Source: Amphibalanus amphitrite (Eukaryota > Arthropoda > Thecostraca > Balanomorpha > Balanidae). From it: a DNA stretch of 64,000 bases. Position 1 is the stretch's first letter; every line of letters begins with the position of its first letter. The notes beneath the pieces are model-generated. The model was not told the origin of the DNA and ran no database searches. It saw only the letters and a list, made by a program, of their open reading frames with translations. Positions 4,286 through 57,840 of the stretch are shown in pieces. A program made the position numbers and the translations under genes. The DNA is taken from positions 1 through 64,000 of the forward strand of contig NW_024883458.1 in NCBI RefSeq assembly GCF_019059575.1, written 5' to 3'.

Positions 4286-5471
4286 CCCGCGCCCAGCTGG
4301 GGGGGTGTTTGAACACCCCCCTTGTGGTTTTTCGCGAATATCTCAAAAACGGCGGCGCGGAGCGCCGCCGTTTTTGGTACACCTTATCATACATCAATTC
4401 TACACATGTTGTAAAAATTTCAGACCAAGGTCATTCAAGGTCAGGTCACCAGGTCACTTGAAGTGACCTCACCTCATAAAAAGTTTCAATGTCTGTCATA
4501 GCTACACCAAGTGACCGATCGCTTTGAAACTTTCAGCGATTGCTGAGAGCAATAGCATGTACAAAATGTATATCTCAGAATTTTGATATCGATGACCTAA
4601 GGTCAGGTCAATTTTGCGACCTCCCCATTATAAGTCAATGGGAGAAAATTGAAATGCGCCTCTTTTGGACGAAAGACATTATAAACACTCCTAAACACCG
4701 AATTACAAGTGGTTTAGACACACTGAACATGAAAATGGCGTCCGTGACCCTTGTTTATGCCCTGAGGTCATCTTAGGTCACGAATGGTATCTAACAGTTT
4801 TTCGCAAATAGCTTTTGATAGAGGCATGCTAGAGCGATGAAAACGCCTTAGATGTGTTCAGCTCGACGATACGGATCGACTGATATGCAACATGATCCTT
4901 TCCGGTCAGGTCATGACCTTGACCTGAGGTCAAATTTTCAAGTTGACCTTTCAAAGTCAAGTTATAGTTCATTCGATGCGTCTTGACGAGAGGAACACGA
5001 TGACGGTAAAAAAACCTCGTACAGGGCTTGGGTCAAAAGTTATTGGAGAAAAACTGTTTCCGAAAAAAATCGGCTATTTTTGCAGTTTTTGCCCCCTGCA
5101 GGCAAAACCGTTGAAGTTTGGTCAAATCTGAGAGAATAACTCAGAAAGGGCGTTAATAGGGCTATCTAATGCGCTTTTCCGCGGCGCTGTAGCTCTATTG
5201 GTTCCCGAGTTATGCGTTGGCTTCTTGGAAATTTTCGACATTCGACCTGGAAATCGGCGAAATTTTGCCTTCCATGACCTCTGGTGACCTGACCTTTGAC
5301 CTGACCAAAAAATTGACCGAAGTGATTTCGTCATTATTTTTGACGCTCTTTCGAACGCCGCCTTCCGCGTATCGCTACGTGGCCCAGGAGCCGAGTTACA
5401 AGGGGGGTGTTCAAACACCCCCCCCCCCCCCAGCAGGGCGTGGAAATCCAGGACCCCCAGCCGGGCGCGGG
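4286..5471 (+). mobile_element. piggyBac-like non-autonomous element (copy B)
   Basis: TTAA at 4282-4285 and 5472-5475 flanks a 1186-bp element whose ends start CCCGCGCCCAGCTGGGGG on the left and CCCGCGCCCGGCTGGGGG on the inverted right. Near the left end a GC-rich inverted repeat (about 4347-4376, core GCGGCGCGGAGCGCCGC) precedes a tract dense in AGGTCA/TGACCT. Copy C at 28931-30125 is a close homologue in the opposite orientation. Short ORFs such as 4540-4776 are conserved in copy C but look like by-products of recent copying, with no transposase motif. Confidence 0.8.
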
Positions 5472-17867: not shown

Positions 17868-20800
17868 ATGGCCGCCTGTAGGGTTGCGGCGCTTCTTCTG
17901 CTGGCGGTGCCGCTGGCACTGGCCGACTACCCCGCCGCCAAGGGACACTCCAGCTACGGAAAGGGAGGCGGAGGTCCCAAGTACAAGATCGAGCCGGCTG
18001 GCCCGTCGGAGGAGTTCAAGTGGGCGGGACCCGGATACCACGTGAGTGTCTTGCGAGTGTACGGAGCGTCGTGGGTAAATGCTGAGTGTCAAGCGATGCG
18101 GAATCTTAGGCAAAGCAGCGATGCTTCAGTAGCCAAGATAGGGGCACTAGAAAACAAGGTTTTTGCCGTGTAATGGAAGTACCTGGTGCTCTGTTTTGTA
18201 CGGGTGCAAACTTCAAACTAAATATACAATTGCAACTTGGAACATTTATCTCAATGACTTGCACTTCGCTGACTTGATTTGCATCTGACGCTGTACCATT
18301 CTCGTGACCTGCGCCATCTGAGTTGACGACTGACGCTTCTTCTCGTCCGGCAGGTTCCTGGCTACGTGCCCCGACCGCCGCACCTGCCCAAGTTCGTGTG
18401 GATGGGCCGGCCCATGTACAACGCCATGTGGGTGCCCAAGGCGCCCACCCCATCCGGTAAGGGCTACGGACCTCCCAAGCCCGCCAGCGGCTACGGCAGC
18501 AGTCACGGAGCTGTGACGATTGTCGGAGGAATCGGCGGCAAGGGCTCCTCCAAGGGTCACGGAGGCTCCTCCAAGGGCCACGGAGGCTCTTCGGGTGGCC
18601 ACGGAGGATCCTCCAGCCACGGAGGAGGTTCGGGATACAGCGGCGGCTCGTCCGGAGGTCATGGAGGAGGCTCCAAGGGCCACGTCTCGCAGCCGGCTGC
18701 CAGCTACGATGCGCCGGTGACGAACAACGGGTACGGACCGCCCAAGCACCCCGTCTCTGGCGGACCGGTGCAGTCTTACGCGGCGCCTGTTCAGGTTGGA
18801 GGAGGGTACAGTGCCCCCGCTCCGCCGCAGGAGAGCTATGGCGCACCTCAGGTTGAGGAAAGCTACGGCGCGCCGCAGGTTGAGGAGAGCTATGGTGCCC
18901 CGCAAGTTGAGGAAAGCTACGGTGCGCCGCAGGTTGAGGAGAGCTATGGTGCCCCGCAAGTTGAGGAAAGCTACGGTGCTCCGCAGGTCGAAGAGAGCTA
19001 CGGAGCCCCGCAGGTTGAGGAAAGCTACGGTGCTCCGCAGGTTGAGGAAAGCTACGGTGCTCCGCAGGTTGAGGAGAGCTATGGTGCCCCGCAGGTCGAG
19101 GAAAGCTATGGTGCCCCTCAGGTTGAGGAAAGCTATGGAGCTCCGCAGGTTGAGGAAAGCTACGGCGCTCCGCAGGTCGAGGAAAGCTACGGTGCTCCCG
19201 CCCAGCCTCAAGAAGAGTATGGGGCTCCCGAAGTGAAGGAGGAATACGGAGCCCCTGAGCCCGTGCAGCAAGGCTACGGAGCTCCCGCCCAGCAGGACTA
19301 CAGCGCCCCTGCCCAGCAGGACTATAGCGCCCCCGCTCAGCAGGACTACAGCGCCCCCGCTCAGCAGGACTATAGCGCCCCCGCCCAGCAGGACTACAGC
19401 GCCCCTGCCCAGCAAGATTACAGCGCCCCGGCTCAGCAGAGCTATAGCGCTCCTGCTCAACCGAGCTACAGTGCCCCAGCCCAGCAAGATTACAGCGCCC
19501 CTGCTCAGCAGAGCTACAATGCCCCCGCTCAGCAAGACTACAGCGCCCCCGCTCAGCAGGATTACAGCGCTCCGGCTCAGCAGAGCTATAACGCTCCCGC
19601 CCAGCAGGACTACAGCGCCCCCGCTCAGCAGACCTACAACGCCCCTGCCCAGCAAGATTACAGCGCCCCGGCCCAGCAAGATTACAGCGCCCCCGCTCAG
19701 CAGGACTACAGCGCCCCGGCTCAGCAAGATTACAGTGCTCCTGCTCAGCAGGAGTACGGCGCCCCTGAGCCCGTCCAGCAGGGCTATGGCGGTCCCGAGC
19801 CCCAGGGCTACGGCTCTGGCGGTGGCGCCCAGGTGGGCGGATACGGCGCCCCGAAGCAGGCCTCTGTGATCGACTACAGCTCTGCGCAGTACTATCCGAC
19901 GGCTCAGGTCGCCCCGCAGTCGTCTCCCGTCTCTAACGCGCCCAAGCTCGATCCGGCCGCCTACGGTGCCCCGAAGGCTGCCTCGATTCTGGGTCAGTAC
20001 AGCTCACCGGAGGGAGCCGTGGCGCCGTCGCAGAGCTATGAGCAGCCGGCGCCGGCCGTCTCCTACCAGGAGCCGTCTCCTGGATACGGAGAGCCGCGGC
20101 CCAACAGCATCGTCGCTGGTGGTCAGCAGGGGTACGCCGCTCCGGCTGCGGAGCAGGGCTACTCGGCGCCCTCCGCTCAGCAGGGCTACACCGCGCCCGA
20201 GGCGGACTCGATCATCACTCTTGAGTCGCTGCAGAAGCAGCAGGCGCAGAATGGCGGTGGATACGGTGCCGGCGGTGGCGGCGGCGACGTCTTCGTCAAC
20301 ATCCAGAGCTCTTTCGCCTACGGCGGTGGCCAGGCGCCGTCTGCTTCGACCGGCTACGGAGCTCCGGATCCTACTGACATCGTAACTGGCCAGTACAATC
20401 CGGCGGCCGTGCCGACGGCACCGCAGGGCTACGGAGGCCCCAACCCTGGCAGTCTGGTGGGCCAGGCCTACGATGTGCAGTACCCGGAGGCTTCTGAGTA
20501 CCGTGAAGAGGTGGTGCGACCCAACGAGCTGGCCGAGGATGGCGTTGACATCGTCGACATCGTCGAGGTCGTCGAGGACCCGCTGGCGGTTGGTGAAGAA
20601 GTCGAGGTTGTTGACGAGGAGGGCGACAGCGATGTGTTCTTCGTGTACTACCCTGGCGAAGACGACGAGACGACACCCGAGGAGGCCCCTGTCGAGGAAG
20701 TCACCATCGAGGAGATCCCCGTCGAAGAGGTACCGGTTGAGGAAGAGGAAGTTCCCGTCACGGAAGCCCCCGTCACCACCACCACCGAGGTCACCACCAC

Positions 20801-21125
20801 GCCGGAGCCGACACGCGCCACGAGGAGGCCGTTCTTCAACCTGCCAACGCGCCGTCCGTTCCTGAGCTCGTTCTACAGCCGCCAGCGCGGCCGAACCACC
20901 ACCACCGAGGCGCCGGAGGTCGTCGACCAGGAGACCGTCACCGAAGCGCCTGTCGCCGAGGAGCCGCAAGCTGAGGCCTCCACGACGACGACTACCACCC
21001 CCAAGCCTCGCTCTCGTCTGGATGAGGTCCGCAACAGGAGGCGACGACCGGTGCCTTTCGGAGCCCGTCTGAGGCCAAAGTTCTACAAGGCCCTCGGAGA
21101 GGCCACGGAAGAGAAGGAAGAGTGA
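17868..21125 (+). CDS. secreted Tyr/Gly/Ala/Pro repeat structural protein (cuticle/resilin-like)
   Basis: Two coding exons: 17868-18041 (58 codons, donor GTGAGT) and 18354-21125 (acceptor after CTCGTCCGGCAG), giving about 981 residues. A polypyrimidine tract and CAG end at 17864, three bases before the ATG, so a 5' UTR exon probably lies upstream. Residues 1-19 are a classic signal peptide ending LALA before DYPAAK. Order: Gly/Lys-rich N-terminus; a VPGYVPRPPHLPKFVWMGRP segment; Gly-Ser-His-rich linker; about 13 copies of the 9-residue unit ESYGAPQVE; about 20 copies of an 8-residue unit near DYSAPAQQ; YGAP/GYGGP spacers; an acidic Asp/Glu/Val stretch; Thr-rich segments (TTTTEAP); and a basic C-terminus. 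Such repeats resemble extracellular elastic or cuticular matrix proteins. The tyrosines could support cross-links. No chitin-binding Rebers-Riddiford motif is seen. Confidence 0.85.
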
Positions 21126-36010: not shown

Positions 36011-37904
36011 GGAGGCCTCACCTGGGCGGCCGCTCCTCCACTGAGTACTCAAGGCGGCTCGTGAGTCGGAGCACGCGACGACGTGAGTCGGAGCATGGGG
36101 GACGTCTCGTCCCGAACAGGCGTCCTGAGCCTCTCCAGAGCCGCCCGCGGGGCGAATGTGCTGCTAGATCGACCAGCGTGCCGAGAATTTCGGTGAACGC
36201 CATTCGCCGGAAAAAAATTATGCGGCCGCCCTGCGCCGAAAAATTCAGCGGCCGCCATGCGTTGAATTCAGCGTATACGAAGTTACGCCGGACGTGCGCT
36301 AAAATTTTCGGGACAATCTCGCCACTACGCCGGAATATTCGGCTGAACTTGTGCTTTTTCCAGTCTGGTATCCACAATTATTGGCCATGATATTTGTTGG
36401 CAAATGAATCAATGAATAAATACCTACCATGCTTATTAAATGTGAGCTATTGGAAAATTTGTCACTTTCTGCCTAACTTCAATAGGGTGCATACATTATA
36501 CAGTGCATCACTGATGCAGTGTCTACTAGGTGGTGAATTGAAAATATAAAAAGATGCAGGCTGAGAGATTAAAGTCCTTTGTGACACACCAAGCCCACTG
36601 CCTACCCAGTACCCAGCCATACATAGGGCTATACCTATCTAGTTTTACTTTTTGCACCCTCTAAAAACTGGAGAAATTGATAAAATAAAGGTATTAAAGG
36701 AAAGAATGCATCCTCCTTAGCTTGAAAAAAAGAAACCACACAATACTAAGAATACTTTTTTACACACAACATTTCTACATTACACCTGGCCACATTTTGA
36801 GTCAGGTAGGAGGTTAGGTTACATTAGGTAAGCTTAGGTCAGCTTAGGTTAGGTTTTATTGTTTTGCTTGAGGTGTAGCTGTTTTTAAGGAGTTAATGAT
36901 TATTTGAACAGGTTTCTAGGTTGATATATGGCTTGTGATAATATGGTGTGGTTTTTATTGAATTTTGAGCAGCCAGCAGTGAGGACAACCTAGTGGTTGT
37001 GGTGCATCCGATGGGTGGAACTAAAAGCTAAGAAGAAGAAGATGAGCCTAGGCTAGGGTGCAAAAATGCAATTTCACCATGCAAAGGAAAAATGCATAGT
37101 CCATGAAATGCATTCAATGGATTGATACTCCCTCAACATGTTATTTCAAAAGAAATTCCGCAAGCAAATTTATCCATTCCACAATTTGCCACATTTCCAG
37201 AAAACCAACAAATTTGGAAATTTGGTAGAAAAAAAAACTTTTAAAAGAAAAACATTTTGGGTATTTTTATGATGCGCGAAAGAACTAGCACAAGCTTGAT
37301 CTAGCATCATTATACCTAAAATCTATTGGCCTTTGGGTAGGTACTAGGTAGGTAGGTACTTTAAACCACCAAGGTAAGTACATATCTCAGACTGATATGA
37401 GAAAATGTAATATCAAGAAAACTAGATTTCAAAATTCATTTTTGTTTTTGGAGGATATTAACTGACGCATCAATATCAAAAGGCTGATGACATCATAGTG
37501 CCTAGTGGAGTGAGTACCTAATGTGCCATCAGTGCAGGGATTAACACTGCCATCAAATTCTTTATATTTGACTAGTTTTCCTCCTGGATGCCATCCCAAC
37601 ACATATCTGGCTCCTTGAAGAAAAGCTGGGTTGCAACTCACCCAACTTGAACTCAACCTCAACCCACCAAAAAGCGTAGATTGAGATTGTGATGGGCCGC
37701 TGACTTGATGAAATAAGGCGCTTGTTCTGGTCCACTTTGAGTGACAGATAAATCACTAAGGACAAATCACAAGTAATCTGGCAAGGCCGTATCAATCTTA
37801 CCAAAACGCATCCACTAGCACGCTTGCCTCAAACGGGACATGCCTAAGAGCTGGACTTTTTGCACGCGTTCCCCGCCAGGGGGCGCCACTGAGGAAGCAC
37901 CCTC
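36011..37904. other. intergenic, no gene recognised
   Basis: The proximal part (to about 36380) may be more of the LINE. A TTAGGTTA-rich patch at about 36807-36858 is degenerate and short. The 37815-37865 stretch (containing ACATGCCTAAGAGCTGGACT) has an inverted homologue near 47285-47320. Confidence 0.35.
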
Positions 37905-38214
37905 TGACGTCAGCGTATATATCTTTCCCGAGCGAAAAAAACAAACATTCCAGTTTTTTGGCGCTTTTGTTTCAATTGTGGTGGTTCTGTTCGAAGGCTC
38001 ATACAGATGGTGTTTGCGCAAAATTTCTTACGGGAAATCACCGACTATTTAGTGTCGACAGCTGCATATTACCTTTTTGAACACGCCTCCATCACTGCTT
38101 GTTTATTGGCTGTCTGTTGTATTGGGCTGTGTTGCTGTATAGTGTATATACCGTGTGTTTTGCTGGGTGATTGTGATAATATTTTGATGATTAACCTTTT
38201 TATTCAGCGGTAGA
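37905..38214 (+). repeat. left arm of a 310-bp inverted repeat
   Basis: Starts TGACGTCAGCGTATATATC and ends TATTCAGCGGTAGA. Its near-identical inverted copy is 42108-42416. Together the arms bracket the RFT1 exons. Probably a long TIR of a foldback-like transposon. Confidence 0.85.
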
Positions 38215-38222
38215 TAATTCTA

Positions 38223-38469
38223 AAAATCCCAGGGGGTGCTACAAACCCCTAATTATCCACCCCTGTTTTTTTATTTTAAGTTCCATCCAGTACCAGTATG
38301 AGTGTTTATGGCAATGGAAGGTAGGTGAAACATTTCATTATTGTAATTTTAATCTTTTGAGACATGAATTTCAACATTCTCTTGAGAGCCTGAGAGCATT
38401 CATGCCAAGGTTTCTGAGTCTGTTTCATGATAAAGAGACAATATTTATAATGGAGTCAACTTGTGGGTC
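38223..38469 (+). repeat. left copy of a 245-bp direct repeat
   Basis: Starts AAAATCCCAGGGGGTGCTAC and ends ACTTGTGGGTC. Near-identical to 41863-42107 in the same orientation. Adjacent (8 bp) to the left inverted-repeat arm. Confidence 0.85.
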
Positions 38470-39225
38470 AAGTCAGCAGAACTTGAACTTGATAAATGAG
38501 TACCTATGACATCACCTCTACACCTGTCGCCTCCTGTATTGTAGTGATGGCAGGTTCAATGCTGAGTCTCAGAATAATAGCCAGCGAGCGTATACTGTTG
38601 TTTTGTATTTCTATGCCCGATCGGCCCCAATGTCTTGCATTTCTAAATATTGAACTGTAATGAATGAGACGCTGTAATGAGGTACTGTAATGAAAAGACT
38701 GCCTCAGACTGCAAGGTTCTATTTAACCAAATATGACTGCATGTCTGCTACAGAATGAAACACTGACAAACACTGACACTGACATCAGGCACTGACAAAG
38801 TGAATGCACAAGAACGATAAGGACTTCTGGACTTCAGAGCAAGAGATACACCTGACGCTCAGGAACGCTGCTGTCACCACATATAGCATACAGCACCCGG
38901 TCGTGCCCATCATTAGCCTACAAGCCCCACCAGACGCTAACCGGCCACGATTTTCTGCATCGATTTTCTGCATCCCCTGCATCGTTCATCACAGATGGCT
39001 ATAATTAGGATCTGAATGCCAAAATTCATGGGTAGGAAGTTGCTTTCAAGCACTGTCCAGCTCTCAAATGGGCGATAGCCACAACGCCCCCTGCAGTCGC
39101 ACTAGTCTTAAAATTGATACATCCACTCTACTTACAGGCACGGTGTATATTCAACCCAAAATGCACATAAATATCACAACAAAACAAACCTATTCCCTGC
39201 ATGACCATGTGAGTAGCACTCCCCG

Positions 39226-41229
39226 CTAGCTGCGCTTCAGTTTATCCCCGACCCGCTCCCTGACCGCCTGGAGGAGGCGGAGCTCGCTGTACACCGCCGC
39301 GGCCACCACGGCGGCCCCACAGAGCGCGCCCACAGCCACATGGGCGGCGGCGGAGCTGGGGTACAGCCAGCTCTCGGAGCCGGCTGCCAGCAGGCCGGCG
39401 GTCACCAGCGCGGCAGCCACGGCGGGCGGCGGGCGGAGACCGAGTAGCGGCGGCACGGACACCGCCGGCTCCAGCGGCAGACCGGCCACGAACCGGTAAC
39501 TGGCGACACACGGGGCGGGGACAGGGTGAGAGAGGTACGGGACACTGTATCGGGCATCAGCGACACACGGGGTGGGGACAGGGTGAAAGGGGTACGGGAC
39601 ACTGCATCAAGCGCCAGCAACACACTGGACGGGGCGAGCGGGCAGCAGCAGCAGAAAATGGGACGAAGACATGATGGTTGAGAGTGGCACGGGGCACTGT
39701 ATCGGGAACCAGCAGCATACGGGGAGGGGACGGGATGACAATTGAGAGGGGTGCAGGACACTATTGGGGACAGCAGACATTCGTATCAGTCGTGGACGGG
39801 TGAAGTAACGAGATCCAAGTATATCGAGATCGGCGATAAAGCGTGATATTGACTATCCATGACAGATTGGATAATGATGTAAATAATTAGACCAATTAGG
39901 ACAAATCAAATCTATTCAAAAACACAAAAACTCACCAAACGTATATCCTGGTCAGCATATTGACGCAGTTGGCGAGGATAAATCCAACCCCGCCGAATAG
40001 CCTAGTAAAGATCCCTGTCGAGATGACGAATATCACAGATAGCAGCACCATCTTCCGGTTATACCTGAAACACCGGAAAACGCCACAACACCTGTCAAAG
40101 CGCCCGATAGTAGCGTTCCTAGCTTCACTTTATCGACACAACTGGCCAGCCTTTCTACTTCGCCTTTAGCCGCAAAAGGCAGTCTAACAACAAAAACCAA
40201 CATGAGAACGTCATTTCCTAATCCGCTCAGCCTCTACCGACTAATTTACCTCACTCCTTACTAAGCCACCGACCATTTCCCGACTGCTTTCCATAAACCC
40301 TCCACGGCACTTACCCATTGATCTGTTCCTGGCGCATCACCGCGAACGTGTAGCACTCCAGCACTCCGTTCACCGCCAGTAGGAGCACGTAGGCGCACTG
40401 GGCGCGCAGCAAACTGACGGCCGGACCGGCGGCCAGCAGGGCGCCGCCGTACAGCCGCAGCAGCAGGGGGGGGGGGGTAGCTCCAGCCGAACGTGACGGC
40501 AACCAGACCGAGCAGGCTCATGGCGCGCAGCAGGTCGTGCAGAACCCGGCCCGCCGCGGCAGACACCGGCTGCAGGGAGAGGGGGTAGGGTCAGACTCAT
40601 AGCGCGGAGTAGGTCGTGTAGCACCCGGCCCGGCCCGCCACCGCAGACACCGGCTGGAGGGGGAGGGAGCTGTCAGGCACCGGCTGGAGGAGAGGTGCCA
40701 AACTGTCCCCTTCCAGTGACTGGCGAGAAGGGGAGAGATGGCCAGAAGGATAGAAGCTGGGCAATAAAACAAACCGAATGACAAAAAAGACACCAAGATG
40801 AAGATCACAACGACTGGCAGTAAGGACTTATAGCGGAGATGAAGAGTAGCTACGAGTATAATTGGCTAATATCAGAGGAGTGTGTGCTTACAGCTTTTTC
40901 GGCGCCTTACCGGGCATCGACACACTGTGGTCAACGTTACTGATATTTTCACCAAATGCCACTACTCCTCAGTAAAAAAAAAAACACAAAAAAAACTAAC
41001 ATCAATCACCTCCTACCACACAATCAGCCACGTTGCCACCTACCTTTCCCCGTTCCACTGTGCGCGAGAAGTAGACGTAGGCGTTCTTCTCGACTGGCTG
41101 AAAGAGGAAGCGGGCCGCCAGGCTGCCCAGGTTGGCCACCACGTCGTACAGGCCCTGCTCGGAGAAGTCGAGCAGGTGGAAGGCGGTCATCAGGTAGCGC
41201 TCGCCCTCCGTCAGCAACTGCTTCAGCAT
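39226..41229 (-). CDS. RFT1: RFT1-like protein, C-terminal exons only
   Basis: RFT1 is an ER multi-pass membrane protein needed for Man5GlcNAc2-PP-dolichol supply in N-glycosylation. Exons: about 41229-41044, 40569-40315, 40064-39936, 39499-39226 (stop), with GT-AG junctions and consistent phases. The first contains LTEGERYLM, NLGSLAARFLFQPVEKNAYV and SRTVERGK, strong RFT1 hallmarks. The second carries CAYVLLLAVNGVLECYTFAV, the third VGFILANCVNMLTRIYV, the fourth the last membrane segments, ending DKLKRS. That is about 280 residues against about 540 for the human protein. No N-terminal exons are recognised upstream to 50.8 kb, and the beginning of the first exon is uncertain. Exon two is out of frame by one base at a 12-base G run (40466-40477); 11 bases would restore both frame and splice phase. 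It is either a gene with a homopolymer error or a truncated copy. Confidence 0.8.
40590..40683 (-). repeat. tandem partial copies of an RFT1 exon start with 3' splice sites
   Basis: The exon at 40569 starts CAG|CCGGTGTCTGCCGCGG. Just upstream on the minus strand a second copy starts at 40653 (CAG|CCGGTGTCTGCGGTGG, continuing about 60 bp before diverging). A short third start is at 40683 (CAG|CCGGTGCCTGACAG). All three have pyrimidine-rich tracts and CAG. The extra copies break the frame, so only 40569 fits RFT1. Confidence 0.65.
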
Positions 41230-41534
41230 TTTTCAGCAAATTCAGAGCAAAATTCAGCAAAATTAGCATTTTTCTTATGGAGTACACACTACAGTTCTGG
41301 TGAGAAAATAGCATATGTTCTACTTAGGAACTCAGACATTGGATGCATCACTGATGCATGATAGGAAAAAAGTAAAGGGTGCATACCTGACATTGATGAT
41401 GCCCAGCACATCAGATGTAATATACCGGAGAATGACTGCATTTGTGATGAATGTGAACACTCAGTAGGTTATCTGAAAGACATTTGTAGGTATAGCTTCA
41501 GCATCAATATGTGCAACACAGACCATGCTATTAT

Positions 41535-41824
41535 GGGCCCTGTTTCACCGGTGATGGCAGCACGCTGCTATCACACGTGTCAAATTGGGTTTCCACGGAA
41601 ACATCAGCAAACCATGACGCCGTCAATCTGTGTGATGTCATCAAACATTGCTGCCAACAGCTTCACGGTCGTGCGATCAAACACATCGCATTCAACGAAA
41701 CAGCAACTCTGTTCCAAACGCAGCTCACAGATTACACGAAACGTCATAAGTGTGACCTCATCACATTACGTCAGCTCGCGCAATTTGATAGTAGCATGCT
41801 GCTATCAACGGTGAAACAGGGCCC
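41535..41824. mobile_element. MITE with GGGCCCTGTTTCACCG ends
   Basis: GGGCCCTGTTTCACCG at 41535-41550 faces its inverse GGTGAAACAGGGCCC ending at 41824, and GCAGCACGCTGCTA pairs with TAGCATGCTGCTA inside. A 165-bp relative is at 57676-57840. Non-coding. Confidence 0.65.
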
Positions 41825-41862
41825 TGGTCTCTGCAGCATATAGGTACCTACTTCATTGGTGG

Positions 41863-42107
41863 AAAATCCCAGGGGGTGCTACAAACCCCTAATTATCCAC
41901 CCCTCTTTTTTATTTTAAGTTCCATCCAGTACCAATATGAGTGTTTATGGCTTGGAAGGTAGGTGAAACATTTCATTATTGTAATTTTAATCTTTTGAGA
42001 CCTGAATTTCAACATTCTCTTGAGAGCCTGAGAGCATTCATGCCAAGGTTTCTGAGTCTGTTTCATGATAAAGAGACAATATTTATAATGGAGTCAACTT
42101 GTGGGTC
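41863..42107 (+). repeat. right copy of the 245-bp direct repeat
   Basis: Near-identical to 38223-38469 in the same orientation, and immediately adjacent to the right inverted-repeat arm at 42108. Confidence 0.85.
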
Positions 42108-42416
42108 TCTACCGCTGAATAAAAAGGTTAATCATCAGAATATTATCACAATCACCCAGCAACACACGGTATATACAGCAACACAGCCCAAATCCCAATA
42201 CCACGGACAGCCAATAAACAAGCAGTGATGGAGGCGTGTTCAAAAAGTTAATATGCAGCTGTCGACACTAAATAGTCGGTGATTTTCCGTTAGAAATTTT
42301 GCGCAAACACCATCTGTATGAGCCTTCGAACAGAACCACCATAATTGAAACAAAAGCGCCAAAAAACTGGAATGTTTGTTTTTTTCGCTCGGGAAAGATA
42401 TATACGCCTGACGTCA
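42108..42416 (-). repeat. right arm of the 310-bp inverted repeat
   Basis: Reverse complement of 37905-38214 with few differences (for example TTCCGTTAGAAATTTTGCGC against GCGCAAAATTTCTTACGGGA). Ends at TACGCCTGACGTCA. Confidence 0.85.
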
Positions 42417-43781
42417 CGATAAAACTGCGCGCACTGTGCGCACGGCTCTGTAAGCAAGTAATATAGTGGTGATTTCATGATGGAAATTGGAATAAGTATT
42501 TTGACGTTGTAAAATTTCAAGCCGTTTTTGTGAAATTAATTAGTAAATGCATTTCAAAAGTATTTATTTAAAGTGTGGAAGGAGAATAATTAGAAGAACA
42601 TGCATATTTTTGTTCCAATAGCTTATTATGTGAGACATGATCGGTACTAACGGGTACTTCTAAGAAATAGTGAAGAAGTACCAAACAGCCTGCTCGGCTA
42701 CGATCGTCAGCTGTCCTTTGGAGCTGGACTTCAACGCTGTAAAAAAAAATGTGTGCTGAATTAATTTTTAGTTTCACCAAAATATAAGCAATTTATCATT
42801 TCCTTTTCACTTTTGTAATTATTGTTGAGTGAAGAGACATGTTGCTAGTTCTGACAATATAAATTATTAGATAAAAAAACGAAATGCGACGGTAAGTATC
42901 TGCTACTAAATTATCACTTTAACTAAATACATGGAGAATCTTGCTACCATTGCTTATAAAACGTGCTTATCAATACACAAATGTTTTATTTCAGACAAGA
43001 AGGATTTATTTGCCTGAAGTCTTGCGTCATGTGCTACTGCTTTGATTCCAAAGACGCTCTCCGGGTCGGGGTAATTTAGTTCTTCATCGATCGATAAGAG
43101 ATTTTGATTCCATTGATATCCAAATTGATAAGCTCGGCACCATGGAGTAAGGGCGTCCCCACAGGGGTGACGCAGGAAATATGAATGGCGTTTACACCGA
43201 CAGTAGTTTCCCACAGCCGGCAATGGGAATCTCCTGTCGGTGTAAACGCTACTATAGTCCCATCCAACTCAAACACTGGGGAATATCCCCGCACTTTTGA
43301 GGACGGAAATCTATGGACCTGCTCGAAAAATAGTGGATAAAATACGGCGAGCTTTCAGTTTTATGGTTGGGTCTCCCTTCCGAGGCACATATTTACGAGG
43401 GATATTGGGTCATATTCCCCCGGCGTCCTGATGATCGGCGCCCAGCTCAACGTCGAAGGCGCCCTGATACGCGGCACTGCTATCTGTGAAGGTGCCCAGG
43501 CTGCTGCCGCTCGAATTTTGGTCGCCTACTTAACAAAACCTCCGTTGGTGCCATCTCAGTTTCCTCGAGGTCAGGTTACCTTCACACGCCGTTGGCTACC
43601 TTGGCTGGCCGGCGACTCGTTCCCCTCGTGGCGACGCTCTTGACATCCAGTCAAAAGTTAGTGGCTGGCGCCCCCAGTGGGGGCCGGGGAAGGGGCAGTG
43701 GGCCTCCACGTTGCTCTCTTCCCGAGCCTATGGTGACTTGGTTCAACTCTCCTCAATAGAATCTGGATTCTGCACGCTGTA
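42417..43781. other. intergenic with a small hairpin
   Basis: A 16-bp perfect inverted repeat, GCGTTTACACCGACAG at 43188-43203 against 43234-43249, with inner TTCCC/GGGAA pairing, forms a hairpin. No gene recognised. Confidence 0.5.
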
Positions 43782-44808: not shown

Positions 44809-44920
44809 AGCGATCCACATTCTGAAAGTGCGTGGCGATTACTGCTCAGACACCACTACGGACAATACGGACAGTGGGTGTGACAATCAGTGGTGCCATT
44901 CATATAGAGGGTGTCGTATA

Positions 44921-45461
44921 TGAGCGGAGAGGCAACAGTACAGCTGAGCGGAGACAACATTAAAACAACAGTACAACTGGCGTTGCATGGAGCTGCAGGC
45001 AACCGGACAGCGGAAGCTTGCGAAAAATAAACAATTCGTCACTTCAACGTATAAACAATAGTAAAAGCAACATAAACACATATTCTCATGGTCGAACCCA
45101 TGCACTAGCGGCTCACGGCGGGCACAGGCGCGCAGTGCGGTAGCGGTACCGGATCACACGTCATGGGCGTTGTCTCAGCATAGGTTGTTATGAGCGGAGA
45201 GGCAACAGCACAGCTGAGCGGAGAGACAACATTAAAACAACAGTACAGCTGGCGTTGCATGGAGCTGCAGGCAACCGGACAGCGGAGGCTTGCGAAAAAT
45301 AAACAACTCGTCACTTCAACGTATAAACAATAGTAAAAGCAACATAAACACATATTCTCATGGTCGAACCCATGCACTAGCGGCTCACGGCGGGCACAGG
45401 CACGCAGTGCGGTAGCGGTACCGGATCACACGTCATGGGCGTTGTCTCAGCATAGGTTGTT
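44921..45461. repeat. two-copy tandem duplication, 270-bp unit
   Basis: Copies at 44921-45190 and 45191-45461 both start TGAGCGGAGAGGCAACAG and end CAGCATAGGTTGTT, differing at only a few bases. Both carry the same non-significant minus-strand ORF. Confidence 0.9.
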
Positions 45462-47959: not shown

Positions 47960-49092
47960 CAGGGTGGGGCAGAAAGATTTACCTCTTGATTTTCTTAAAT
48001 ATTTCGGCCCTGAACAAAGATATCGAATTGATTTCTGGCACATATATGCAGTAGCATGTCCACTTCTCAGCGACGGCATTATGACTCAATATGGTCACCT
48101 TTGTCCTTCACCACTGCCTCGAAACGTTCCTCTGCGGAGGGGCACGAGCGCCGCACGGTGTCCCCGCCAAGATTCGACGGTGCCGTCTCAAGGGCCAGCT
48201 TCAGGGCGGCGATTCTGCTGTGTGCTGCTGCACACACCCTCCTCTCCAAGATGGTCCAGATTGCGAAGTCCATCGGGTTCAGGTCTGGACTTGATGATGG
48301 CCGAATGTCTTTGTCCCAGACCCCAGGCATGTGGGTCTCACCACGGTTGAGCGCTGTTGGCCGTTTGCGGCGGCGCACCGTCCTGGACGAAGACGTATTC
48401 GTCTCGGAACGACTGAGTGACCCAAGGCAAAACATGACACATGTTCCTCCCTGTAAATTAACTTTCACAGCCTCCTTGATGAAGACCAAGGATCCTTTTG
48501 AGCCGTCGGATGCGACGGCAGCCCAAACCAAGACACCAGCACGCTTCTGGCGACGAAAAATGGTGCGAATAGCAGGATCAATGCTGGATGAACCATCTGC
48601 CAAAATTCTGGCGTTTTGGGAGTGTCTCTGGGGCTCAAGCATGAACATGTTGTCATTGGACCAAAAGAATTGCCTTGTTACCGGCGCTCCTGATCCCCTC
48701 CAATGTCTTTTGGGTCCTGTGTAGCTGCTTTTCCCTGGATGCCGCCGAAATTAGGTGCCGATGTTGCACCCTGTATGAAATAAACCCCAAGCCGTCGTTT
48801 ATGATTCTCCTGGTGGTTCTGGGCGAAACACCGAGATCCCTTGGCAGTTTGCGCATGCTTCGCCTAGAACTTGAAACACCTTCTTGTGCACGATATTAAC
48901 CAGCTTTTTGAAGCAGCTATCCTTTATTCTGCCTGGCATGGACTTCGTCGACACCAACCCTGTCTTTTTAAGTCATTTAATTACACTGCAAACAGTTTTT
49001 ACGGCAACACCGAGCTGTTTGGCAACGTTTCAGGAGCTATGGCCACCCTACTTTAGCGACGCAATTTGGGCTCTCTTAGTCATCTTCGCCAT
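47960..49092 (-). pseudogene. decayed Tc1/mariner transposase with left end
   Basis: A mariner-like end, CAGGGTGGGGCAGAAAGATT, follows TA at 47958-47959. The minus strand encodes a nearly full-length but broken transposase. It begins with ATG at 49092 (MAKMTKRAQIASLK, then stops), passes through a helix-turn-helix-like LPRDLGVSPRTTRRIINDGL near 48850-48790, and continues with VLVWAAVASDGSKGSLVFI. SSPDLNPMDFAIWTILERR follows near 48270, and it ends KDKGDHIES at 48079. Internal stops and frame changes make it inactive. The matching right terminal repeat is not present. Confidence 0.8.
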
Positions 49093-57675: not shown

Positions 57676-57840
57676 GGGCCCCTGTTTCACGGCCGCTGCC
57701 AGCGCGCTGCCAGCACACGTGTAAAATTGAGTTTCCATGGAGACATCAACAAACTGGTATCTTCAACACGGCCACAGTTTGTGACGTCAGCTCGAGAAAT
57801 GCGCTGCCAGCGTGGTAGCAGCGGCCGTGAAACACTGCCC
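57676..57840. mobile_element. short relative of the GGGCCCTGTTTCACCG MITE
   Basis: Left CCTGTTTCACGGCCGCTGCC and right GGTAGCAGCGGCCGTGAAAC are inverted. It shares ACACGTGT and TTTCCA(C/T)GGA(A/G)ACATCA with the copy at 41535-41824. Confidence 0.6.

Follow-up and report, generated by a model that had tools for sequence, protein, structure and literature searches.

The window analysed here, 64,000 nucleotides of the genome of Amphibalanus amphitrite (contig NW_024883458.1 of assembly GCF_019059575.1, positions 1 to 64,000), contains between positions 37905 and 42416 exons of RFT1, a gene essential for N-glycosylation, framed by long inverted and direct repeats. In all probability this block is a non-autonomous Mutator-like element (MULE) of the type known as Pack-MULE, which carries genomic DNA of RFT1 as its cargo. 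Transposon capture had been proposed in an earlier note on this DNA, and the proposal is now supported by perfect target-site duplications in 18 of 20 members of the family, by empty sites on two contigs, by 36 RFT1-carrying loci and by an intact native RFT1 gene elsewhere in the genome. Elements of the Mutator superfamily are characterized by a target duplication of 8–10 bp (usually 9), long terminal inverted repeats, a MULE-type DDE transposase and a SWIM zinc finger.

Structure of the element in the window

The block is framed by an inverted repeat X (37905–38214 versus 42108–42416, 94.6% over 312 aligned columns, E = 9e-136) and a direct repeat Y (38223–38469 versus 41863–42107, 97.6% over 247 columns, E = 3e-117); both matches are beyond chance. 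The alignments thus bear out the repeats described in the earlier note, except that the outer 8 bp of X as first drawn (37905–37912) are not part of the element and were reassigned to a 9-bp target-site duplication, CTGACGTCA, which is found at 37904–37912 and identically at 42408–42416. A palindrome within it, TGACGTCA, mimics an inverted repeat. We do not count TGACGTCA towards the terminal repeat, since it is absent from the other RFT1 copies compared.

The mobile element proper spans positions 37913–42407. It starts with GCGTATATATC and ends with the reverse complement of GCGTATATATC, and the terminal bases are the same in the 20 copies of which both ends were read. The left terminal inverted repeat X (302 bp, 37913–38214, plus strand) is followed by an 8-bp spacer (38215–38222, plus strand; TAATTCTA in the window, GAATTCTG in L027 and on contig C108), by the left Y (38223–38469, plus strand), and by a transposon-derived subterminal segment of 461 bp, here called T (38470–38930, plus strand). 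The left order is the same as in both arms of an element on C108 that carries no RFT1. The captured RFT1 DNA with its introns lies on the minus strand (38931–41534) and is collinear with the native loci L020 and L025, apart from the loss of exons 3–5 and the 5′ part of exon 6. It is interrupted by a 290-bp insertion with 39-bp inverted ends that resembles a miniature inverted-repeat transposable element (MITE; 41535–41824), beyond which native sequence resumes with the final stretch of the captured intron 1 (41825–41858, minus strand; by eye against L020 and L025). The right Y (41863–42107, plus strand) has the opposite orientation to Y in the right arm of relatives without RFT1, and the spacer and T′ are missing on this side. 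The right terminal inverted repeat X′ (42108–42407, minus strand) was delimited by the repeat alignment. With about 300 bp, the terminal inverted repeats of the window copy exceed 100 bp, as in the Mutator superfamily. A stretch of 78 bp elsewhere in the window (57677–57754) matches the MITE-like insertion at 82%.

Copies and target sites across the genome

The genome from which the window derives (807.55 Mb, 2644 contigs) was searched for the Pfam domain Rft-1 (PF04506), and 84 of 181 candidates were scored. The 90 matches were grouped by hand into 37 loci including the window, two of them native genes and 35 not. A further RFT1-carrying locus, on C2305, was found via its X end, which gives at least 36 RFT1-carrying element loci; this number is a lower bound, and some of the loci may be haplotypes of one another. 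Segment T is present on the same contig in 35 of the 36 loci (on C585 about 16 kb from the RFT1 match, so that the link is uncertain there), and X is present in the case of C252. When T was searched for, with 40 of 45 candidates scored, elements on C36, C108, C190, C233 and C265, which had given no Rft-1 match, were detected as well, and T had no match at the native genes; in the search with X, 40 of 87 candidates were scored.

Regions were compared for 20 loci (18 with elements, two native), for part of three more and for C2305. The order X, Y, cargo, Y, X′ is constant, with some truncations and inserts, in the RFT1 copies that extend to both ends. The copies form size classes of 4.5, 5.7, 6.8, 7.0, 7.5 and 7.9 kb, several of them with near-identical copies at different sites. 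Perfect 9-bp target-site duplications, differing by site, were found in 18 of the 20 members with both ends read, which comprise 17 RFT1 elements and three RFT1-less ones. L019, L021, L023, L026, L029, L038, C33 and the short loci L001–L008 stand outside this tally, their ends being cut, truncated or not fetched.

The site occupied in the window is empty in L012 (C694) and L014 (C2005), where the flanks are joined by a single CTGACGTCA. The insertion of L012 in turn has its empty site on C2005 and in the window itself, as a single CGGCTACGA at 42695–42703, about 290 bp from the window's own insertion. The insertions of L027 and of the C190 element are separated by a few bases within related host DNA; by eye, each shows the unoccupied site of the other. 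The contigs homologous to the window flanks may be haplotypes, paralogues or repeats.

Nine copies of the 4.5-kb class (the window and L009–L016) differ by 0–7 substitutions per 4.5 kb. L027 equals L028 over 4917 reference positions and C448 equals C809 over 4064, in both cases at different sites, and cargo differs by 0.8–2.3% between classes in the pairs computed. From this near-identity of copies at different sites, transposition looks recent in several sublineages, and by the same measure the 4.5-kb class of the window appears to be among the most recently mobile.

The native RFT1 gene and the captured copy

The search for a full-length RFT1 locus elsewhere, a check named beforehand, was successful. 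L020 on C114 has nine exons with GT-AG introns and encodes 530 amino acids, with a Pfam Rft-1 match (E = 2.8e-122) over residues 15–519. The exons of L025 on C138 are free of stops and indels and differ from L020 by a synonymous divergence (dS) of 0.082 and a nonsynonymous divergence (dN) of 0.008; L025 is either a second native locus or an allele. Neither X nor Y nor T was found at the two native loci within the 9.5 kb fetched, and C114 carries an element about 276 kb from the native L020. Captured host gene DNA is thus found between MULE ends, and its identifiable parents, L020 and L025, are without X, Y and T nearby, as expected for a Pack-MULE. At positions 4482–4738 of L020 the start of exon 7 is tandemly duplicated (unit about 79 bp), and the elements show these duplications in other numbers.

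In relation to the native gene, the cargo spans from about 0.5 kb past the stop codon into intron 1, ends about 0.9 kb short of exon 1, and does not include the promoter. In the window we find exon 9 (39226–39499, by native comparison, with no Pfam match of its own), exon 8 (39936–40064, Rft-1 E = 4.5e-10), exon 7 (40315–40569, E = 9.6e-13), a truncated exon 6 (41044–41228, bases 56–240 of 240, E = 4.5e-22) and exon 2 (41387–41472, by native comparison), all on the minus strand. The earlier note was right in placing the last four exons in the block; it does not mention exon 2 and the MITE-like insertion, which the cargo also holds. The window copy has a premature stop (native codon 30, in exon 2) and a frameshift, caused in exon 7 by a variable-length G-run (+4 in the window), in addition to the missing exons. 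The G+C content is 0.54 in the cargo and 0.37–0.44 in the element parts.

Across the family, the elements hold exons 2–9 or deletion derivatives thereof, and exon 1 was absent from all 19 element copies examined. L027 and L028 have exons 2–9 free of stops and indels. The 4.5-kb class shares the exon 2 stop, the variable G-run and the loss of exons 3–5 and part of exon 6; L022–L024 carry a stop, and L017–L019, L021 and L026 carry frame-shifting indels. A simple scan for in-phase ATG exons upstream of exon 2 gave none within L027 or L022 and two short candidates in L018. By eye, no transposase-like frame was seen in the window copy, in L027 or in the nested inserts of the long copies, and these inserts were rejected as the source of transposase for this reason.

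Two local features of the cargo were observed as well. The G-run of exon 7 (around 40465–40478) carries inserts of 3 to 9 relative to the native gene and differs by up to 6 bases between near-identical copies, which may reflect either real slippage or assembly error. At the exon 6 deletion junction (41229–41260) there is, by eye, a filler of about 30 bp made of short repeats of the adjoining sequence, as might be left by error-prone break repair.

Cargo divergence is 7.9% between L020 and L025, 6.1% between L020 and L027, and 7.9% between L025 and L027, so that the captured allele is about as far from both natives as these are from each other. In a cargo tree (FastTree, 25 rows, L001 and L026 being one locus) the two natives are separated from the sampled element copies with a local support of 1.0. 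This is consistent with the origin of the RFT1 elements from a single capture.

To get an idea of the selection acting on the cargo, changes were counted in 19 of the element copies. Derived changes, defined relative to both natives, that are not shared by all copies amount to 27 nonsynonymous and 22 synonymous, compared to 9 and 33 between the natives (Fisher p = 0.0013); of the changes that all 19 copies share, 3 are nonsynonymous and 14 synonymous. Five positions at which the natives differ were skipped, and the class-C loci (C448 and kin) are outside the count. Depending on the mutation model, 64–73% nonsynonymous changes are expected under neutrality, and 55% were observed. We read these counts as indicating that RFT1 was functional until near its capture and has been mostly relaxed since, with some remaining constraint possible. 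The cargo would then evolve under relaxed, near-neutral conditions and be mainly a passenger.

RFT1-less relatives and a putative source of transposase

The C108 element carries no RFT1. It is 5981 bp long, is flanked by the duplication GTTTACGCT and has 902-bp inverted ends that are 97.6% alike, in the order X, 8 bp, Y, T on the left and T′, Y′, 8 bp′, X′ on the right. Exons in its interior resemble, by eye, the 3′ half of a Mutator-type transposase; SWIM was matched only weakly there (E = 0.019). When one of these exons was searched against the genome in six frames, 66 candidates yielded 61 matches, of which the nearest are on C36, C108, C33, C190, C233 and C265. On C33, an X terminus is followed by exons, one of which matches PF10551 (MULE) with E = 2e-7 and 31.8 bits at a cut-off of 27.6. 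On C190 the two ends are 11,925 bp apart and flanked by the duplication CGGTGGTAT; on C265 both ends are present at 11,833 bp without a duplication. C190 and C265 are called RFT1-less from the lack of an Rft-1 match in the genome search. In a more distant relative on C225, a 367-amino-acid frame matches MULE (E = 6.9e-8), and a further frame contains a SWIM finger over the cut-off (E = 4.4e-5).

We infer from these matches that the MULE-domain transposase of a larger RFT1-less relative with the same ends likely mobilises the RFT1 elements in trans. A further family of transposase-like sequences, sharing 56% identity with the C108 exon, was also observed, with 33 matches of equal score, among them L042 (C29, 245900–248300).

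Arm architecture and a model of capture

The earlier note had assumed a short parent element X-Y-X′. We dropped this parent, since in the RFT1-less C108 element each arm, followed from its outer end inwards, is X-GAATTCTG-Y-T, with inverted Y and T on both sides, and no short X-Y-X′ element was found among the loci fetched; with 40 of 87 candidates scored in the search with X, such an element may nevertheless exist. For the same reason Y, which shares TCTA beside both of its copies, was dropped as a candidate long terminal repeat of a retroelement: it is part of the inverted end of C108. The right arms of C190 and C265 also have X, Y and T in the C108 order. The left arm shows the full order in both L027 and the window; in their right arm, X is directly followed by the reversed Y, without spacer and T′; the X/Y junction of L027 reads GGTAGA|GACCCACA. 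RFT1 therefore lies between a complete and an altered arm.

This arrangement could be the trace of a replication error. A copying strand would leave the right arm, copy Y from the complementary arm and return at X′, by which Y would be flipped and the spacer and T′ lost. Long inverted ends are plausible stall sites for copying, and the flipped Y would be in keeping with fork stalling and template switching during capture. The mechanism is deduced from sequence, and flip and capture may have occurred in either order. Internal deletions and insertions after capture would then have produced the size classes.

Alternative explanations

The earlier note had also considered that two partial copies of one transposon happen to flank an ordinary RFT1 gene. 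Exon order, introns and the 3′ end do match a real gene; however, the whole block from X to X′ recurs elsewhere as a unit with its own 9-bp duplications, C694 and C2005 carry its site without the insertion, and an intact native gene exists elsewhere; the copy in the window is marked by a stop, a frameshift and lost exons. The empty sites together with the repeated units refute this explanation, to which we assign practically no probability. It is very improbable, too, that the copies stem from segmental duplication or are uncollapsed haplotypes: 15 RFT1 copies have 15 different perfect target duplications, and the insertion points differ even where flanks are shared. Such sharing was indeed observed, at 94–98% for the flanks on C694, C1961 and C2005, for the left flank common to C33 and C190, and at 79–93% for the repeat flanks of some other copies, and alternative haplotypes may be in the assembly. 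The distinct target sites nevertheless refute duplication for the copies that have them. An assignment to the P superfamily, with a P-type transposase and a target duplication of 7–8 bp, or to Galileo foldback elements was rejected, given target duplications of 9 bp and a related transposase with a MULE domain.

The long copies might keep a working RFT1 if exons 2–9 of L027 and L028, which are free of stops and indels, were spliced to a first exon outside the element. The proportion of 55% nonsynonymous changes is lower than expected for neutral cargo at 70% (binomial p = 0.03) or 75% (p = 0.0025), and is not clearly below a CpG-weighted 67% (p = 0.09). We consider a working copy improbable, as exon 1 is lacking in the 19 copies examined, an in-phase ATG exon was not found within L027 by a simple scan, other classes carry stops or frameshifts, and the changes are significantly more nonsynonymous than those between the natives. 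A bolder idea, likewise improbable, is that the RFT1-carrying form, which apparently outnumbers its transposase-bearing relatives, is the successful element itself and that its cargo matters, in that long copies whose exon 2–9 frame is intact, spliced to outside first exons, or transcripts running from the terminal repeats through RFT1, would change the RFT1 dose. On this view, the flip of Y would let the capture step be read directly as template switching of replication within a hairpin. With regard to the mode of capture, gap repair of an excised element instead of template switching during replication is possible but rather doubtful. Gap filling has been proposed for single-copy animal Pack-TIRs (PMC8277862); on its own, it leaves unexplained why Y is flipped and why one arm lacks spacer and T′, and the same paper prefers fork stalling and template switching for multicopy Pack-TIRs.

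Some observations weigh against our interpretation of the block as a Pack-MULE with a mainly passive cargo that is moved in trans. Two of the 20 members, C809 and C265, lack a perfect target duplication. The low proportion of nonsynonymous changes given above may point to some constraint on the cargo, and the change counts cover 19 of the 36 loci. C33, which bears the MULE match, reaches T′, and the contig then ends before Y′ and X′. C190 was placed by its two ends and by an exon between them that matches at 97%. The SWIM finger of C33 and C108 (E = 0.019) is under the Pfam cut-off, and in C33, C190 and C265 the match to X in the left arm covers only about 192 bp.

Other features of the window

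By eye, a frame on the minus strand (48079–48750) resembles a remnant of a mariner/Tc1-type transposase, and a 932-amino-acid frame (18327–21125) with YGAP-rich tandem repeats may encode a cuticle-type structural protein. A 272-bp tandem duplication (97%) at 44919–45461 is matched also on the homologous contig C694. For both C694 and C2005, the similarity to the window breaks off on the left at the same base, 37835, as if a third repeat ended there.

Comparison with known systems

The uptake of genes by Mutator-type elements is an old open question that has mostly been studied in plants, where Pack-MULEs are well known from rice and other species. Here a single genome combines two loci of the intact native gene with a relative that bears a transposase, a deletion relative lacking RFT1, several classes of derivatives, near-identical young copies and empty sites. 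Since both capture breakpoints can be compared with the native gene and with the relatives, models of capture become testable by sequence and assay. Counts of RFT1-like genes in such genomes can, furthermore, be inflated by mobile copies. A search of open-licence literature, mostly of listings, found no earlier report of an RFT1-carrying transposon.

Plant Pack-MULEs resemble the window element in their Mutator-type ends, 9-bp target duplication and host gene cargo, which is often multicopy and richer in G+C (PMC8277862). The family described here differs from them in that it resides in an animal, carries a nearly whole gene, occupies no fewer than 36 loci that apparently go back to a single capture, and has an asymmetrical arm with a flipped Y. 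According to a 2021 survey of 100 animal genomes, no Pack-MULEs were identified in the reference genomes, and one Pack-MULE family, Ssk-FB4, is described in flies (PMC8277862). Like the window family, Ssk-FB4 of Drosophila melanogaster has a nearly complete host gene in an element with long terminal inverted repeats and 9–10 bp duplications, and was spread by transposition; it occupies three loci, one of them tandemly duplicated, is polymorphic in flies, has an unknown transposase and reportedly is under positive selection (PMC8277862). In contrast, the window family has many more loci, a transposase-bearing relative was found, and its cargo appears near neutral.

Turmoil-1 of Caenorhabditis elegans is likewise an animal DNA element with host coding sequence, but its coding pieces sit within the inverted repeats themselves (PMC2572040). 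A survey of arthropod MULEs reports MULE transposases, terminal inverted repeats of 13 to 1193 bp and recent activity in several species; it counts transposase-bearing elements, and the words Pack-MULE, Cirripedia and Crustacea are absent from its text (PMC13359780). Aedes aegypti has MULE derivatives that bear fragments of host genes, and Muta1 and its derivatives are similar to the window family as animal MULEs with 8–9 bp duplications, terminal inverted repeats longer than 100 bp in most families and non-autonomous gene-fragment derivatives; they differ by subterminal tandem 12-bp repeats in the architecture of the Muta1 terminal inverted repeat, and the available sections make no mention of RFT1 (PMC5225508). 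In fungi, amplification of a housekeeping gene driven by a transposon has been described (PMC6710886). The kind of element found here is already known, also from animals, in which there are few descriptions of it; new, as far as we have seen, are the size of the cargo, the copy number, the transposase-bearing relative in the same genome and the architecture of the arms.

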